In this document: one piece after another, positions 5,990 through 47,904 of the stretch
Numbering within the stretch: position 1 is the stretch's first letter
Layout: every line of letters begins with the position of its first letter
Virus record (IMG/VR): IMGVR_UViG_3300035670_000342
Location: 1-47,904 of that record
Origin: a virus
DNA length: 47,904 bases
Reading direction: 5' to 3' (one strand)
The notes under the pieces: generated by a model
What the model saw: the letters and a program-made list of their open reading frames with translations, nothing else
Databases searched by the model: none
What the model was told of the DNA's origin: nothing
Made by a program: the position numbers and the translations under genes

Positions 5990-6375
5990 TCCTCACCTCT
6001 GAATCGCCTTTCAGCGGGTTTTCCTTGCGGTTTCACTGGCGCTTTACCCAGTCGTTGCAACATATACTCAGCTTGCAGTTGAAGCTCTTTGGCTTCGATG
6101 GTGTCCCGGTCTTTCGGGTAGTGATTCTCAAGCAAATACTCAATGCGCTTGATGGCCTTCTCAAGCTGGCCGCGATGGAAAGTGTCAATCAGTTCTGCCA
6201 CGTGCTCCGGCAGTCGCATCTTCTGGATGTAACGATCCAAGCACGCACCGCAGCCATTCGGTTTCATCTGTCCAATGTGAGCAAGGCAATCCCGGTCAAC
6301 CTGCTCCACAAAACCACGCTTGCACCACTGGCAGACCCACTGAATCTCTACGGTATTGTCGGTGGCGGTAATCAT
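5986..6375 (-). CDS. Zinc-knuckle protein with helical tail (129 aa)
   Basis: Cys-Gln-Trp-Cys near residue 15 and Cys-Gly-Ala-Cys near residue 42 form a zinc site. A long helical segment (60-110) and a basic tail follow. It starts with a 4-base overlap with the stop of the replication initiator gene, so it is probably co-expressed with it. Role unknown. Confidence 0.6.
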   Translation of the reverse strand: MITATDNTVEIQWVCQWCKRGFVEQVDRDCLAHIGQMKPNGCGACLDRYIQKMRLPEHVAELIDTFHRGQLEKAIKRIEYLLENHYPKDRDTIEAKELQLQAEYMLQRLGKAPVKPQGKPAERRFRGEE

Positions 6376-7163: not shown

Positions 7164-7175
7164 CGCTAACACTCC

Positions 7176-7280
7176 AAAGAAAAAGCCCCCACCAGCCAGA
7201 GAATGCAGTCGGCGAGAAGCCGATGCGTGCCGGATAACCGGCGGCCAGTGGGGGCAAATTCTTGGTTGTTCTGCATTCTC
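7176..7280 (-). promoter_or_regulatory. Structured leader with terminator and competing stem
   Basis: On the minus-strand RNA a 13-bp stem forms between 7255-7243 and 7197-7185 and is followed by UUUUUCUUU (7184-7176). It is continuous only on this strand, where two positions become G-U pairs. It encloses GCCGG-UUAU-CCGGC (7242-7229) and UCGGC-UUCUC-GCCGA (7223-7209). A second perfect 10-bp stem (7280-7271 with 7208-7199) crosses it, so the two form a pseudoknot or exclude each other. The initiator start codon lies 13 nt after the U tract. This looks like an attenuator. Confidence 0.65.
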
Positions 7281-7294
7281 ACCTTCAATTGTGG

Positions 7295-7721: not shown

Positions 7722-8620
7722 TTTGCTCCTCCTTGTTGTGGGTTGACTGCATAAACGTAGAAAATTCCGTTGATGACACTGTGCAAGCAGTAGCCCTTTC
7801 GCCACACTTCCATGCGGGATTCAGCGTGTTTTAAGTTCTTTTGCATTGTCGGCAAGTCGGCTACAGTTAAACAGATAGCCATCAATGCAGCATCCCTCGC
7901 CGCATCCCACGCCGCATACCACGCCGCATACCACGCCGCATCCCTCGCCGCATTGCTCGCCGCATCCCTCGCCGCATACCACGCCGCATCCCTCGCCGCA
8001 TACCACGCCGCAGCCCTCGCCGCAGCCCTCGCCGAACCCCACGCCGCATCCCACGCCGCATACCACGCCGCATCCCCCGCCGCATCCTCCGCCGAACCCC
8101 ACGCCGCATCCCACGCCGCATACCACGCCGCATACCACGCCGCATCACCCGCCGCATACTTCGCCGCATACCACGCCGCATCCCCCGCCGCATTGCTCGC
8201 CGCATCCCTAGCCGCATCCCTAGCCGCCAAAATATTATCGGCGTAAAAAACCTTCCAAGATGGGTCGGCATTGCCGTCAGGCTTACACCACCGAAAATCT
8301 TTGAGCATTTCAATATGGCTAATCGTTCTAGCCCACCATTGCGGCGCTTCCACCTCTCTCAACAGCCGCGCCGCCCGACACACGCACTTGTCACCCTCCC
8401 AACCGCCGATCTCTTTAGCCTCGGCCTCATAAACAGTCATGCCGAACTTTGCCCAACGTGAATAAGGCGCTGTCGTTAGGTGGATGCCGCGTGAGCAGAT
8501 ACGCAACTCCCCGCTGACGGTTTGCCATTTGCCGGGCTTTCCGTTTTTTGGCAATGACCACTTCATATTTCCGCCATGACAGGACTTGCCATCGACAAGC
8601 ACCTTGTAAAGCGTGTTCAT
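7718..8620 (-). CDS. DUF7666-like protein with long Ala-Ala-x-x repeat (300 aa)
   Basis: Residues 1-95 show the pattern of a small phage/bacterial domain (Ile-Cys-Ser-Arg-Gly-Ile-His-Leu, then Tyr-Glu-Ala-Glu-Ala-Lys-Glu-Ile, then Cys-Val-Cys-Arg-Ala-Ala) that I associate with DUF7666. Residues 131-246 are about 29 tandem tetrapeptides of the form Trp/Arg-x-Ala-Ala, with Trp-Tyr, Trp-Asp, Arg-Asp or Ser-Asn in the variable places. This should form a regular helical rod or solenoid. A normal C-terminus (247-300) follows. The ribosome binding site is GGAG, and the gene follows the structured RNA region. Function unknown. Confidence 0.7.
7883..8230 (-). repeat. 12-bp tandem array encoding Ala-Ala-x-x
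   Basis: About 29 units of 12 bp (on the + strand variants of GCCGCATACCAC) keep several frames open on both strands, which explains the apparent overlapping open frames. The array is variable in sequence but constant in period, a substrate for slippage or recombination. Confidence 0.9.
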
Positions 8621-8693
8621 CTTCTCATCTTCTCCGGGTCGTCACAGTGACCTCCGTTGGTTGTGGTTTGGTTTGCGAAAGTATTGCGCCCGC

Positions 8694-9266
8694 CGCGTGA
8701 ATCCTTACCCTTTCGGGTGTCTAGGTAGTCGCTAGCGCCTTCACGCGCTTCGCCCTGCTGCAAGCCAGCCGTCGCCGGCTCATCGCCATTGAAGCACGGG
8801 CTATCGGTCGGCACAGACACGGACGCAAAAAGATTGCAGGCGAGCGCGGCGTTACTGCGCACTCGTGCCGCCCCGATAGGCAATCGCTTGCCTAGTGGCT
8901 TTAACGCCACCGCCTGAGTGCTTGCTTTCCCGCCTGCAACTGAAAACAACCCCGCTGGTGAGTGAGTGTTTGGTCGCTTGGTTTTGGGAACAAGGATTGC
9001 GGTGGAGAAGCACCGCATCGCGGGGTGTAGAGTTGCTACAGAAATTGCGTATTCAGTTGATTGTTCACCATGCGCCCTACAGGGGTGAACTCCTGCCCCA
9101 ACCGTTGACGTTCTCATATCAGGTTAAGGAGTTCACCCCCTCCCGGCGGTTGAACCCCTCAACGACATTGGAAATAGAGCAGGCGCGGGCACTCGGTAGG
9201 TCTGTGACAACGCTCTGAGTGTTTAGCCCCGCGCCTGCAAAGTTGGTTTGATTCAGCGTTGTCACA
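8694..9266 (-). ncRNA. Large structured non-coding RNA (about 570-620 nt), candidate
   Basis: The minus strand folds into many perfect helices. They are 9266-9255/9214-9203 (12 bp), 9238-9228/9189-9179 (11 bp, crossing the first: pseudoknot), 9139-9127/9094-9082 (13 bp), 9059-9052/8944-8937 (8), 9026-9020/8955-8949 (7), 9017-9011/9004-8998 (7), 8893-8888/8883-8878 (6, loop GCGA), 8879-8873/8807-8801 (7), 8865-8858/8848-8841 (8 with one G-U), 8780-8776/8771-8767 (5, loop GCGA), 8747-8740/8701-8694 (8) and 8718-8715/8710-8707 (4, loop GAAA). Three GNRA loops and the G-U pair exist only on the minus strand. No convincing protein is encoded. Size and ornament resemble phage giant RNAs such as ROOL or GOLLD, but I cannot assign a class. 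attP arm sites are an alternative for part of it. Confidence 0.7.
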
Positions 9267-9271
9267 ATTTC

Positions 9272-9300
9272 AACCTAGTGAATCCGTTCTTCTGTTTCAA
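9272..9300 (-). promoter_or_regulatory. Promoter candidate for the structured RNA
   Basis: TTGAAA (9300-9295), 17 bp and TAGGTT (9277-9272) on the minus strand predict a start near 9265, which is the first base of the first long helix. The -10 is weak, so confidence is moderate. Confidence 0.4.
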
Positions 9301-9309
9301 GGATTATTT

Positions 9310-10775: not shown

Positions 10776-10861
10776 TCTAAAAATCCCCGTCCCGCCGGTC
10801 GATGTTGCGCCATATTTAGCCGCAGACAATCGGCAAGGTCGGCGCACCGGCGGGAACGGGG
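10776..10861 (-). terminator. Rho-independent terminator of the clamp operon
   Basis: On the minus strand a 15-bp stem with one bulged base (10861-10846 with 10799-10785) is followed by ATTTTTAG. The loop contains nested stems at 10846-10841/10811-10806 and 10834-10831/10822-10819. It closes the operon that runs from 13783 to 10906. Confidence 0.75.
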
Positions 10862-11234: not shown

Positions 11235-11323
11235 ACCTTTCCGAGCCTGTAGGCTCTACGGTTAGCGTCATGCTAACCCCTGTAGGGTGCCGGCAGTGTT
11301 ACCCGCCGGCACCGTGGCAGGGG
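11235..11323 (-). promoter_or_regulatory. Structured 5' leader with hairpin-SD cassette
   Basis: GGAAAGGT (11242-11235) directly follows GAGCC-TACA-GGCTC (11256-11243). Further upstream are GTTAGC/GCTAAC (11261-11277), a 9-bp stem GGTGCCGGC/GCCGGCACC (11286-11313) and an outer CCCCTG/CAGGGG (11277-11323). There is no T tract, so this is a leader or processing structure rather than a terminator. Confidence 0.55.
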
Positions 11324-21622: not shown

Positions 21623-22557
21623 AAGTCAACGTCATCACCAACACGACGAACGGGAAAGGTCTGCAACGGGACGCCGAGATCATCCGGGAAGCGTTGGTGA
21701 CTGCCGGCATCGAAGTCCGGTTGGCGCATTTCCTGAAACCGCAAGAAGCCGAGCCTGCCGACCTGAACATCTTCTGCGAGGTTATCACGGAAGAACACCT
21801 GAAATTGTCCAAGCGGAACTGGATATTTCCCAATCCCGACTGGTGGATGCCGCACTATGACGCCTTGCTCCCGCAGTTTGAGATGGTGTGTTGCAAGACG
21901 CGGGTGGCGCAACGGTTGTTCGCCAAGAAACATCATTCGGCGGTGTTCACCGGGTTCTGTGCGCGGGCGATGCTGGACAAGACATCCGGCAGGAAACGGA
22001 CGTTTCTGCATTGCCCCGGTGAAAGCATCGTCAAGGGCACGAAAGCCGTTTTGGAAGCGTGGCGGGATTATCAGATTCAGCATCCGTTGACGGTGGTGCG
22101 GGGGTTCCCCACTGTCCGGGCCGAGATGCAACAATACTGGGTGGACGTGGAAAAGATGCTGCCGATCCCGAACGTGGAAGTCTTGGGACGTATCACCGAC
22201 GAAGAATTGACCGCGTTGATGAACTCCAACATTTTCCACCTGTGCCCGTCCGAGACGGAAGGGTTCGGTCATTCCATCCATGAAGCCCTGAACTGCGGGG
22301 CGGTCGTGTGCGCGACGGATATTGCGCCCATGAACGAATGGCACGGCATCGACATCCGGTTACTGATCCCCGCCACGGCCATTCGCCAGCAGCGCATGGC
22401 AATCTGCGGGATGGTGCCACCGGACGGCATCAAGACGGTCGTGGACCGGTGCATGGACTTGGATTCCCGCGAGGTCTGCGCCATATCTGCCGTCGCCCAC
22501 GAGTTTTCGTTGTGGGAACGGATGGCGTTTTACCGGGCGTTGTATCACCTGTTATGA
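21619..22557 (+). CDS. Glycosyltransferase family 4-like (312 aa)
   Basis: The C-terminal half contains Leu-Cys-Pro-Ser-Glu-Thr-Glu-Gly-Phe-Gly-His-Ser-Ile-His-Glu-Ala-Leu, the nucleotide-sugar binding Glu-x7-Glu motif of GT4 enzymes, after Val-Glu-Val-Leu-Gly-Arg-Ile. The N-terminus begins with a Rossmann strand. It probably extends a glycan together with the other sugar genes here. It overlaps the TerL start by 4 bases. Confidence 0.8.
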   Translation: MKVNVITNTTNGKGLQRDAEIIREALVTAGIEVRLAHFLKPQEAEPADLNIFCEVITEEHLKLSKRNWIFPNPDWWMPHYDALLPQFEMVCCKTRVAQRLFAKKHHSAVFTGFCARAMLDKTSGRKRTFLHCPGESIVKGTKAVLEAWRDYQIQHPLTVVRGFPTVRAEMQQYWVDVEKMLPIPNVEVLGRITDEELTALMNSNIFHLCPSETEGFGHSIHEALNCGAVVCATDIAPMNEWHGIDIRLLIPATAIRQQRMAICGMVPPDGIKTVVDRCMDLDSREVCAISAVAHEFSLWERMAFYRALYHLL

Positions 22558-25139
22558 GCGATAAACGCGAGGGGATGATTCGCGGCAAGAGCGGTATCTG
22601 GCTGGATGCCGAGTTGCAGGCGAAAGCCAAGGAACTCGAAGCCAACCCCGAGTTGATGGCGAGTCTGACCCCGCGCATGAACAGTTATTTCAAGCAACTG
22701 CCGTGGCCGAAACAATGGGCGGCATTGCTGTTAAATGGACAGGAAGGGCTATACGGCGGAGCCGCTGGACCGGGGAAAGTAGTTGATAAAGAAGGACTTG
22801 TGTTGACTCCGTTCGGATTCAAGAAGGGCAAGGACTTGAAAGTTGGTGATGCCGTCAACAATCCAGATGGTTCGGTGGCGCGAATCATCCAGATTCACCC
22901 GACCGTTCGACTGCCGGCGTGGTGGGTGCGATTCAGCGACGGTACACAAACAAAGGTTGCCGCCGATCACTTGTGGCTGGCGTGGCGTTCCGGTAAGCGC
23001 AAGAAAGTTTCCAATGGTGGCAAGTTCGGCATGGCGGCAGCGGAGATCGTCGAAACCCGCACGATTAAGGAGTGGGTTGACGAAGCCAACCGACAAGTCG
23101 AATGCGGAATCCGACCGAACTGGCCTTGCATTCCGGTGTGCAGCGAACAACCGTTTAACGTGACGCACCGGTATCCTTCGGTGTTAGACCCCTACGTTTT
23201 GGGCTTATTGATTGGCGACGGTTCGATTGTTGATGCAAATGCACTCACAATCACGACAGCCGATATTGATTTCATGTGCGCCGAACTAGACAGGCGGGGC
23301 CTTGAGTATTCAGTCATCGGCAAGCAGGAAGGCAATCATGCCGTATCTCTGAGGTTTCGCGGCGAGAGCCGCAAGTTGATTGCTGCTGAATTGGAAAAGC
23401 TCAAATTACTGGGAACGTACTCTGACAACAAGTTTATCCCGCGCCAGTTTCTATACGGGTCAATTGAGTCGCGCTACCAACTGTTGCGCGGACTAATGGA
23501 CACGGACGGGCATTGCTGTGAAGAAGATACCGGCTATTGCACGATCAGCAGGCGGTTGGTGAAGGATATAATGTTTCTGATCCAAAGCCTGGGCGGTACA
23601 GCCACTTTATCCGAGAAGAATCCGACCTACACCTACAAGGGCGAAAGACGCAATGGACAGAAGGCGTACACGCTCTACATCAAACACCCCGACCAGACAA
23701 AGCTGTTTTCATTACCACGAAAACTCAAGGTCGCATCGAGCCGCGCCAGTACCCCGATGTACCGGCGGGTTGTGGGAGTGGAGGTTGACGGGGAGATTAT
23801 CGGTAACTGCATCACCGTGTCTCACCCCAACGGTCTGTATCTCACAAACGACTTTATTGTAACGCACAATAGCTCCTACCTACTCATGGCGGCCTTGCAA
23901 TACGCCGATGTACCCGGTTATTCTGCCGTGCTTCTACGTAGAACGTGGGCGCAGCTTTCACAGCCGGGCGGTCTAATCCCAAGATCGCAAGAATGGCTGG
24001 ATGGCACGGGAGCCAAGTGGAGCGAGACGAAGAAGCTCTGGACGTTCCCCTGCAAGGACGGTCCACCAGCGGTACTCCAATTCCTGCACATGGAACACCC
24101 GACTGATATGTATAACCTGAAAGGATTGGAAGCCCAGTTTTTCGGGTGGGATGAGTTGACCGAGTTTGAAGAAGCGATGTATCTGTACGGGTTTTCACGG
24201 CTCCGCAAACCAAGATGCCCGATTCACGATTCCACGCCAAACACGCAGGATTGCGCGTTCTGCCAACGGAACCATAAGTTGATGGCCGTGCCCCTTCGTG
24301 TCCGTGCCGCATCCAACCCCGGCGGCATTGGACATGATTGGGTCAAACAACGGTTTGTCGAACAACCCAACACGCCGGACAGATTCTTCATCCCCGGCAC
24401 CGTGTACGACAATCAGGCCGTGGACGCCGAGAGTTACGTCAAGAGTCTGCATCATCTTCCCATGATTGAACGGAAACGGTTGCTGGACGGGGATTGGAAC
24501 GTGACGGAATCGGGGATGCTGTTTCGGAGAGACTGGTTCAAGGTGATCGACACCGCACCGGCCAACCTCGCTTGTGTGCGAGCATGGGACTTGGCGGCGA
24601 GTGCCGTGAAGAAAGGGCGCGACCCCGACTATACGGTGGGAGCCAAGCTGGGGATTGACGGGAACGGTATTGTGGTCGTGTTGGACTTGAAGATCATGCG
24701 GGACACGCCGTTGAACGTGGAGATGCTGGTAAGAGAGACAGCCGAGCGGGACGGGATTGAAGTGCCAATCTACATCGAACAAGAACCGGGTGCTTCCGGC
24801 AAGAGTTTGATGGAGCATTATCAAAGGAACGTCTTGCGGGGATTCGTGTTCAGCTTCGACCGGAACACCGGCAGCAAAGCGGCCAGAGCAAAACCGTGGA
24901 GCGCCTACGCCGAGGCGGGTCACGTGTGTATGCTGCGGAGAGACTGGAACACGCCGTTTCTGGAGCAACACGAGATGTTTAGCGGCAAAGCGGACGGCCC
25001 GCATGACGACATCGTGGACGCCTGTTCGCTGGCGTTCGCCCAACTGAAACAACCGATTGCAAGGCGTGAAAGTTTTTACAGCGATGATCTGAACGACTTG
25101 GACGCAATCGAACGGGAACTGGCAAGCACTTGGGGATGA
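22554..25139 (+). CDS. terL: Terminase large subunit with intein (861-aa precursor, 497 aa spliced)
   Basis: Host-protein parts are residues 1-75 and 440-861. The Walker A loop Gly-Gly-Ala-Ala-Gly-Pro-Gly-Lys is cut by the intein directly after Lys75; splicing restores Lys-Ser-Ser. Walker B is Phe-Phe-Gly-Trp-Asp-Glu (Asp169/Glu170 in the spliced protein). The RNase H-like nuclease shows Arg-Ala-Trp-Asp-Leu-Ala-Ala and His-Asp-Asp-Ile-Val-Asp-Ala. TerL pumps DNA through the portal and cuts it. ATG 22554 overlaps the previous stop. Confidence 0.92.
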   Translation: MSDKREGMIRGKSGIWLDAELQAKAKELEANPELMASLTPRMNSYFKQLPWPKQWAALLLNGQEGLYGGAAGPGKVVDKEGLVLTPFGFKKGKDLKVGDAVNNPDGSVARIIQIHPTVRLPAWWVRFSDGTQTKVAADHLWLAWRSGKRKKVSNGGKFGMAAAEIVETRTIKEWVDEANRQVECGIRPNWPCIPVCSEQPFNVTHRYPSVLDPYVLGLLIGDGSIVDANALTITTADIDFMCAELDRRGLEYSVIGKQEGNHAVSLRFRGESRKLIAAELEKLKLLGTYSDNKFIPRQFLYGSIESRYQLLRGLMDTDGHCCEEDTGYCTISRRLVKDIMFLIQSLGGTATLSEKNPTYTYKGERRNGQKAYTLYIKHPDQTKLFSLPRKLKVASSRASTPMYRRVVGVEVDGEIIGNCITVSHPNGLYLTNDFIVTHNSSYLLMAALQYADVPGYSAVLLRRTWAQLSQPGGLIPRSQEWLDGTGAKWSETKKLWTFPCKDGPPAVLQFLHMEHPTDMYNLKGLEAQFFGWDELTEFEEAMYLYGFSRLRKPRCPIHDSTPNTQDCAFCQRNHKLMAVPLRVRAASNPGGIGHDWVKQRFVEQPNTPDRFFIPGTVYDNQAVDAESYVKSLHHLPMIERKRLLDGDWNVTESGMLFRRDWFKVIDTAPANLACVRAWDLAASAVKKGRDPDYTVGAKLGIDGNGIVVVLDLKIMRDTPLNVEMLVRETAERDGIEVPIYIEQEPGASGKSLMEHYQRNVLRGFVFSFDRNTGSKAARAKPWSAYAEAGHVCMLRRDWNTPFLEQHEMFSGKADGPHDDIVDACSLAFAQLKQPIARRESFYSDDLNDLDAIERELASTWG
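22779..23870 (+). mobile_element. Class 3-type intein with LAGLIDADG endonuclease (364 aa)
   Basis: The insert runs from Val1 to Asn364 (ending Val-Thr-His-Asn) and is followed by extein Ser. Position 1 is Val, so there is no N-terminal nucleophile. The class 3 Trp/Cys/Thr set is visible: Trp66 two residues after the block B His64, Cys344 in block F and Thr362 before the penultimate His. Block A shows Leu-Val-Leu-Thr-Pro-Phe-Gly and Lys-Val-Gly-Asp. Two LAGLIDADG motifs (about 139-149 and 235-245) mark a homing endonuclease. Confidence 0.85.
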
Positions 25140-47009: not shown

Positions 47010-47077
47010 ACCGGCACGGCAAACTTCTCCCGCACACAGGCGGATCCTCCCAGTCATCCGCGTATTGCCGTGCCGGT
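47010..47077. repeat. Inverted repeat between radical SAM and phosphoesterase genes
   Basis: ACCGGCACGGCAA (47010-47022) and TTGCCGTGCCGGT (47065-47077) form a perfect 13-bp stem that encloses a 6-bp stem GCGGAT/ATCCGC (47040-47061). TTCTATTT follows on the + strand. It could be a terminator or a cis-regulatory RNA. Confidence 0.6.
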
Positions 47078-47102
47078 TCTATTTCGGAACAAGGGGGAAT
47101 AA

Positions 47103-47834
47103 ATGGCATATAAAAGAATGATGGCTGTCGGTTGTTCGCACGGGTACTTACAGTGCCCCGAAGCGTTAAAGGCCGTCCTTGAGGCGCGTAGGCGCTGGAA
47201 ACCGCATCTGACAGTCCACTTGGGAGATTTCCTCGACACCGCGGCGCTTCGGAGTGGGGCGCTTGGCACCAAAGACGAAACCGCCGAGATTGCGCCCGAC
47301 ATGACCAGCGGCTTGCAGTTCCTCGAGGCGTTGCGCCCTGACGTGATTCTGTGCGGCAACCACGAAGATCGTATCTGGAACCTTGCCGAACACTACAACG
47401 CCGTGAAAAGCTACCTTGCCAAGCAATGCATCAGCAGCATCGAATCCAAAGCCCGTAAGCTCGGCGCCAAGTTGATTCCATACACCTACAAGCAGGCTTG
47501 GCAGGTCGCTGACATTGCTTTCCTTCACGGCACGATCTACGGGGAAAATGCTGTCAGAGACACGGCAGAAGTCTATGCACCGTGCAACGGCAAGGTGGTA
47601 TTCGCTCACTCGCACAGGGCGGGGGTGGCCCGTGGGCGGCGGGGGGATAACCCGCTTGGGCTGAATACGGGAACGCTCATGGACATTGCGAGCGCGGGAT
47701 ACGCCAAACTCCGCAAGAGCACACTGTCATGGACTCAGGGTTTTGTGTGGGGCGTTTACGACGAAAGAAAAGGGAGATCGCATCTATGGCTTCACGACAA
47801 CGGGCAGGCAAACGAATGGCATCTGCCGGTATAG
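47103..47834 (+). CDS. Calcineurin-like metallophosphoesterase (243 aa)
   Basis: Metal-ligand motifs in order: Gly-Cys-Ser-His (residues 10-13, Cys where most members have Asp), Leu-Gly-Asp-Phe-Leu-Asp (Asp42), Gly-Asn-His-Glu (Asn86, His87), Leu-His-Gly-Thr (His142) and Ala-His-Ser-His (His169, His171). It should hydrolyse a phosphoester, possibly a nucleotide or DNA/RNA end. Cys11 in place of the first Asp might alter metal binding. GGGGGA precedes the ATG. The 3' part is repeated at 3-236. Confidence 0.85.
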   Translation: MAYKRMMAVGCSHGYLQCPEALKAVLEARRRWKPHLTVHLGDFLDTAALRSGALGTKDETAEIAPDMTSGLQFLEALRPDVILCGNHEDRIWNLAEHYNAVKSYLAKQCISSIESKARKLGAKLIPYTYKQAWQVADIAFLHGTIYGENAVRDTAEVYAPCNGKVVFAHSHRAGVARGRRGDNPLGLNTGTLMDIASAGYAKLRKSTLSWTQGFVWGVYDERKGRSHLWLHDNGQANEWHLPV

Positions 47835-47904
47835 TTGACCCGCTGGCATTGCTGGCAAGGTACGACAACCAAGAGGGCAAACGCGAGTCCGATGCTAGGG
47901 CGGC
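47599..47904. repeat. Right copy of the terminal direct overlap
   Basis: Same sequence as 1-306 apart from eight synonymous third-position differences in the phosphoesterase frame. It marks the circle junction. The last 119 bases hold the start of the gene that is complete at 188-454. Confidence 0.95.
47786..47904 (+). CDS. Truncated second copy of the 88-aa protein gene
   Basis: Identical to 188-306. It is cut by the end of the contig, so it is the same gene as at 188-454 seen twice because of the overlap. Its ribosome binding site differs by one base (GGGAGA instead of GGGAGG). Confidence 0.9.
   Translation, partial: MASRQRAGKRMASAGIVDPLALLARYDNQEGKRESDARA

Follow-up and report, generated by a model that had tools for sequence, protein, structure and literature searches.

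The window analysed here is the whole of IMG/VR virus record IMGVR_UViG_3300035670_000342, which comprises 47,904 bases of an unclassified phage. A direct terminal repeat of 306 bases (1-306 and 47599-47904), the copies of which are 97.4% identical and differ in few bases, suggests that the record may represent a nearly complete phage genome. Genes are oriented mainly leftward below ~16 kb and rightward above. Within a mostly tightly packed leftward operon, a gap of ~690 bases separates a tyrosine integrase gene (PF00589, phrog_1) from a DUF7666-like alanine-repeat gene, both leftward, the latter with a weak Pfam match below the cut-off. The features of this gap are listed in Table 1. On the plus strand, positions 22308-25139 encode a 943-aa protein of unusual double layout, as its C-terminal part matches the large terminase family phrog_979 and its N-terminal part also matches terminase as well as helicase/primase-type families.

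Table 1: Features predicted in and around the gap following the integrase gene.
Feature	Position	Strand	Details
Gap without convincing gene, between integrase and DUF7666-like alanine-repeat genes	8621-9309	minus	ORFs without codon bias or family
166-aa frame	8617-9117	minus	ATGA overlap with next start; coding unlikely
Element A, 5' strand of helix P1 (pseudoknot)	9255-9266	minus	TGTGACAACGCT
Element A, A/C-rich linker	9239-9254	minus	GAATCAAACCAACTTT
Element A, 5' strand of helix P2	9228-9238	minus	GCAGGCGCGGG
Element A, 3' strand of P1	9203-9214	minus	Within P2 loop
Element A, inner helix	9190-9221	minus	CACTC (9217-9221)/GAGTG (9190-9194); lengthens P2
Element A, 3' strand of P2	9179-9189	minus	
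Element A, T-rich tail	9171-9178	minus	TCTATTTC; immediately past P2
Mutually exclusive hairpins sharing strands	9063-9163	minus	9163-9151/9135-9123, 9140-9127/9094-9081, 9090-9084/9069-9063
Element B, long stem	8833-8940	minus	8940-8929/8844-8833, 12 bp with G-U; encloses smaller hairpins
Element B, tail	8826-8832	minus	CTTTTTG; immediately past stem
GCGA-capped hairpin	8761-8782	minus	
3' domain	8694-8747	minus	8-bp helix 8747-8740/8701-8694; encloses GAAA-capped hairpin 8718-8707
A/C-rich leader	8651-8675	minus	CAAACCAAACCACAACCAAC, then GGAGG, ahead of downstream gene

Coding potential of the gap

The original prediction had recognized no convincing protein in this region, which proved broadly right, with the qualification that a 166-aa frame spans most of it on the minus strand. 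This frame is longer than expected (P 0.012 in shuffles) and overlaps the next start by 4 bases, as coupled genes typically do; both would fit a real, fast-evolving small phage gene in which the secondary structure is incidental. Against this, the frame showed a codon score of 0.009 without third-position bias and no clear ribosome-binding site; it belongs to no family in Pfam, NCBIfam or PHROGs, searches of IMG/VR, genomes, phages and plasmids yielded no relative, and it leaves the pseudoknot uncovered. A tblastn match on a Rhizobium plasmid (E value 0.2), the neighbouring genes of which are unrelated, was ascribed to chance. We regard a protein gene at this position as unlikely, and a fast-evolving one with merely incidental structure as very improbable.

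Helices and folding of the gap region

Element A, located after the integrase gene, comprises two predicted crossing helices, and the arms of the pseudoknot proposed originally were confirmed. The arms of P1 (9203-9214/9255-9266, 12 bp) and P2 (9179-9189/9228-9238, 11 bp) are perfect; the duplexes were predicted to have energies of -19 and -25 kcal/mol, respectively. Together with the perfect 13-bp arms 9082-9094/9127-9139, they represent three perfect inverted repeats within 185 nt of the gap. With a minimum length of 11 bp and a spacer of up to 120, perfect inverted repeats number five in the entire window, three of them in the gap region; 2,000 shuffles of the region yielded a mean of 0.013 such repeats, and none of the shuffles gave three. 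When G-U pairs were counted on the minus strand, five helices scored at least 28, compared to 0.25 in shuffles. These five are clearly beyond chance among the dozen helices claimed originally, whereas the others are near the chance level (22 helices scoring at least 18 versus 14.4 by chance, ~1.5-2-fold) and carry little weight. The core of the structure is above chance. Two copies of a module, GCAGGCGsG...CACTCAG (8914 and 9215), also drew attention, but taken alone this direct repeat was not significant (P 0.16) and was discarded.

Folding of the minus strand, a check suggested with the original prediction, yielded an MFE z-score of -4.22 for 8694-9266 compared to -2.74 for the plus strand (100 shuffles). 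For the slightly larger segment 8680-9290 the two strands behaved similarly in 20-shuffle runs (-4.06 and -4.53), so that folding energy alone cannot settle the strand. Positions 8694-9060 alone are weakly structured (z -1.9). The three GNRA hairpins reported for the leftward direction are present on the minus strand (TAGGCAA-GCGA-TTGCCTA, AGCCG-GCGA-CGGCT and ACCC-GAAA-GGGT); with stems of at least 4 bp, 0.39 are expected (P 0.01), and the plus strand has one. Two strong helices attain their full length only via minus-strand G-U pairs, and the stem 8841-8848/8858-8865 is indeed continuous only leftwards by virtue of G-U pairing, as had been stated. Because of the stronger z-score, the three GNRA hairpins versus one, the G-U-dependent helices and the T-rich runs after long stems, a leftward RNA is the better reading than a rightward one. 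The neighbouring genes are leftward too, in agreement with this strand. The gap region is probably a structured RNA.

The repeats might also be explained at the level of DNA. The attP of temperate phages with tyrosine integrases is repeat-rich and usually adjoins the integrase gene. The gap lies directly 3' of the integrase gene, no other gap nearby approaching it in size, and the heptamer GGTGAAC is repeated at 9139, 9084 and 9069. The region could thus be mainly attP and integrase-related DNA, with inverted repeats serving as protein-binding sites and RNA folding as a by-product. However, the three inverted pairs are unrelated in sequence and none of them recurs in the window above chance, unlike copies of one arm-type site; no core resembling a tRNA 3' end was found in the region; and features of RNA are evident in the perfect continuity achieved by G-U pairing, the GNRA loops and the T-rich tails. 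We consider it rather unlikely that the region is mainly attP, although an attP overlapping the same gap is possible.

Searches for relatives and transcription signals

The original prediction had compared the region with giant phage RNAs and had proposed covariance models as a check. An Rfam search, including the GOLLD, ROOL, OLE and HEARO models, gave no match at the gathering score, and at E values of up to 10 only chance matches to other families appeared. ARAGORN detected no tRNA in the window. The promoter-like pair said to predict a start at the first helix was not substantiated, as no sigma-70-like promoter reached 9/12 in our scan, and the promoter and terminator scans gave no promoter or conventional terminator delimiting a 570-nt unit. 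Since there was no Rfam match, no tRNA and no promoter of at least 9/12, the sequence does not support membership in ROOL, GOLLD, OLE or HEARO.

The homologues that were to be collected did not appear. Neither blastn of the RNA region against GenBank phages and plasmids nor pattern searches of IMG/VR yielded one, all 14 matches of a genome pattern scan were due to chance, and blast searches in 20 virus records, the 14 chance-match genomes and samples of five bacterial groups were equally negative, as were about 1,480 sampled genomes altogether. Short matches in two relatives of the terminase (G010 and G019) were located within coding-like sequence and judged chance. As exact-pattern searches and blastn detect close relatives only, this absence of homologues is weak evidence. 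Literature searches revealed no matching element. A leader dedicated to DUF7666 genes was considered but discarded, since in phages possessing such a gene the position immediately upstream is occupied by other genes.

ROOL and GOLLD are large ornate RNAs of phages and prophages, phage-encoded and often found near tRNA islands (PMC12286853). The region studied here is likewise phage-encoded, extends over several hundred nt, lacks a protein and contains a pseudoknot; in contrast to ROOL and GOLLD it does not match the respective Rfam models and has neither a tRNA island nor known relatives. A discrete, abundant transcript that forms homo-oligomers would be a further hallmark of such RNAs. What holds of the leftward ornate RNA claimed originally is the leftward structured RNA, as indicated by folds, GNRA loops, G-U pairs and U-rich runs; its likening to the giant ROOL/GOLLD RNAs is not supported, in view of the negative searches for families (up to E 10 in Rfam), tRNA, promoter, conventional terminator and homologues. 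The region might nevertheless encode a free-standing, large and ornate non-coding RNA (~440-570 nt) that resembles ROOL/GOLLD in style but constitutes a new class and functions during infection in trans or as a multimer. Its size, the z-score of -4.2, the pseudoknot and the three GNRA-capped hairpins on one strand would fit such an RNA, as would the lack of a protein-coding signal and the presence of several domains exceeding an attenuator's needs. The weak structure of 8694-9060 alone and the lack of an Rfam match, homologue, promoter or tRNA neighbours argue against it, and we consider this explanation doubtful.

T-rich tails and similar elements at other gene junctions

Stems 9238/9179 and 8940/8833 run directly into TCTATTTC and CTTTTTG, respectively. 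Neither was listed by a standard terminator scan (loop 3-8); the loop of element B is ~85 nt. For an intrinsic terminator, the tail of element A is a weak and interrupted one; this 8-mer has five copies in the record (0.5 expected), three of which are within sequence that looks protein-coding.

A genome-wide scan, designed after the elements had been seen, searched for a stem with a T-rich tail whose loop pairs with an upstream strand, allowing no bulges. The two top candidates were 9266-9179 and 7280-7185, both intergenic and on the minus strand, and these were the two reaching a score of at least 23, compared to 0.025 per shuffled window. Tails with at least five T in eight occur at ~2% of positions, yet they were found past the stems at 9179, 8833 and 7185; a T-rich tail also follows a bulged stem at 10785. 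Four elements thus tailed are distinguished (9266-9171, 8940-8826, 7280-7180 and 10888-10779), three of which have a predicted pseudoknot across an A/C-rich linker. The linkers (AACAACCAAGAATTT, GAATCAAACCAACTTT and CACAACCACAACACAATTCC) contain AACCA. The T-rich tails, the second long stem 8940/8833 and the elements 7280-7180 and 10888-10779 had been missed by the original prediction.

The element at 7165-7285 (minus strand) is pseudoknotted and U5-tailed and just precedes the start of a gene that ends at 6372. A 13-14 bp stem encloses two hairpins, and within it CTGCATTCTC is the pairing partner of the strand GAGAATGCAG; the tail TTTTT is followed by a ribosome-binding site and ATG. It folds with a z-score of -4.55 and gave no match in Rfam. 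The intergenic element 10888-10779 (minus strand) has the same layout: next to a bulged stem of 15 bp, CGATGTT and AACATCG form a pair, the tail is ATTTTT, and an ATG lies within ~12 nt downstream. Its score of 16 in the scan, which allows no bulge, is not above chance, as shuffles reach it 6.8 times per genome; what supports it is the 15-bp stem with its bulge, which was recognized by eye.

Possible role in operon control

Transcription attenuators and riboswitch expression platforms use alternative stems and a stem followed by a U-rich run. The gap region resembles attenuators and pseudoknotted expression platforms in its position between genes, its alternative stems (9063-9163), its stems with U-rich runs and its pseudoknot across an A/C-rich linker. 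It differs from them in its long loops, the weak, interrupted U run of element A and the lack of a known ligand, leader peptide or Rfam aptamer. Phage antiterminators such as the put RNAs of phage HK022 are comparable as structured RNAs in an early phage transcript, and the region could similarly govern terminator read-through. They differ in that put sites are near the transcript start and are not described as U-tailed.

Since the strongest parts of the region are terminator-like and similar elements are found at two other gene junctions, we tentatively favour, at rather less than an even chance, a cis-acting terminator/attenuator region after the integrase over a stand-alone ornate RNA. We infer that the region is transcribed, that the pseudoknot forms and that read-through is controlled. 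The structured leftward RNA would lie within the early (minus-strand) transcript of the phage. About 44 nt past the integrase stop codon, this transcript would fold into the pseudoknotted, U-tailed, terminator-like element (9266-9171), followed by the mutually exclusive hairpins (9163-9063), the second long stem ending in U5 (8940-8826) and finally, ahead of the next gene, the leader rich in A/C with its GGAGG. The probable function of the region would be attenuation or regulated termination at the boundary from the integrase to the downstream genes, where the fold adopted would decide whether RNA polymerase goes on. The helix and fold statistics, the T-rich tails past the long stems, the location of the elements between genes and the shared strands permitting alternative folds speak for this attenuation. 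The failure to find homologues, the weak tail of element A, the long loop of element B and the negative terminator scan speak against it, and the two 3' GNRA hairpins and the domain 8694-8747 are left unexplained by it.

A new class of phage RNA, either an ornate RNA unrelated to ROOL/GOLLD or a family of attenuators (7280, 9266, 10888 and possibly 8940), appears conceivable rather than probable, both versions taken together. In the latter version, the gene junctions of a single genome would repeatedly carry such members, pseudoknotted and U-tailed and with linkers rich in A/C. Should the elements prove to be genuine switches, this phage would regulate its early operon, including the integrase, by RNA folds of a layout unlike any Rfam family, which would offer a testable handle on the decision between lysis and lysogeny. 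If the region encodes one large RNA, it would join a very short list of giant phage RNAs of unknown function.

Further leaders and hairpins of the record

A/C-only stretches of at least 12 bases occur at the minus-strand leaders 13518, 8675, 7745 and 5238, in each case directly 5' of purine-rich ribosome-binding-like sequence. Such A/C-only runs number 25 on the minus strand of the record compared to 7 on the plus strand. On the plus strand, a 13-bp intergenic stem at 47010-47085 carries the tail of element A, TCTATTTC, and is situated directly past a stop codon and ahead of a ribosome-binding site and ATG. A cluster of perfect hairpins between two early genes (11235-11323, minus strand) showed the lowest GC-corrected folding energy among the 300-base windows of the record.
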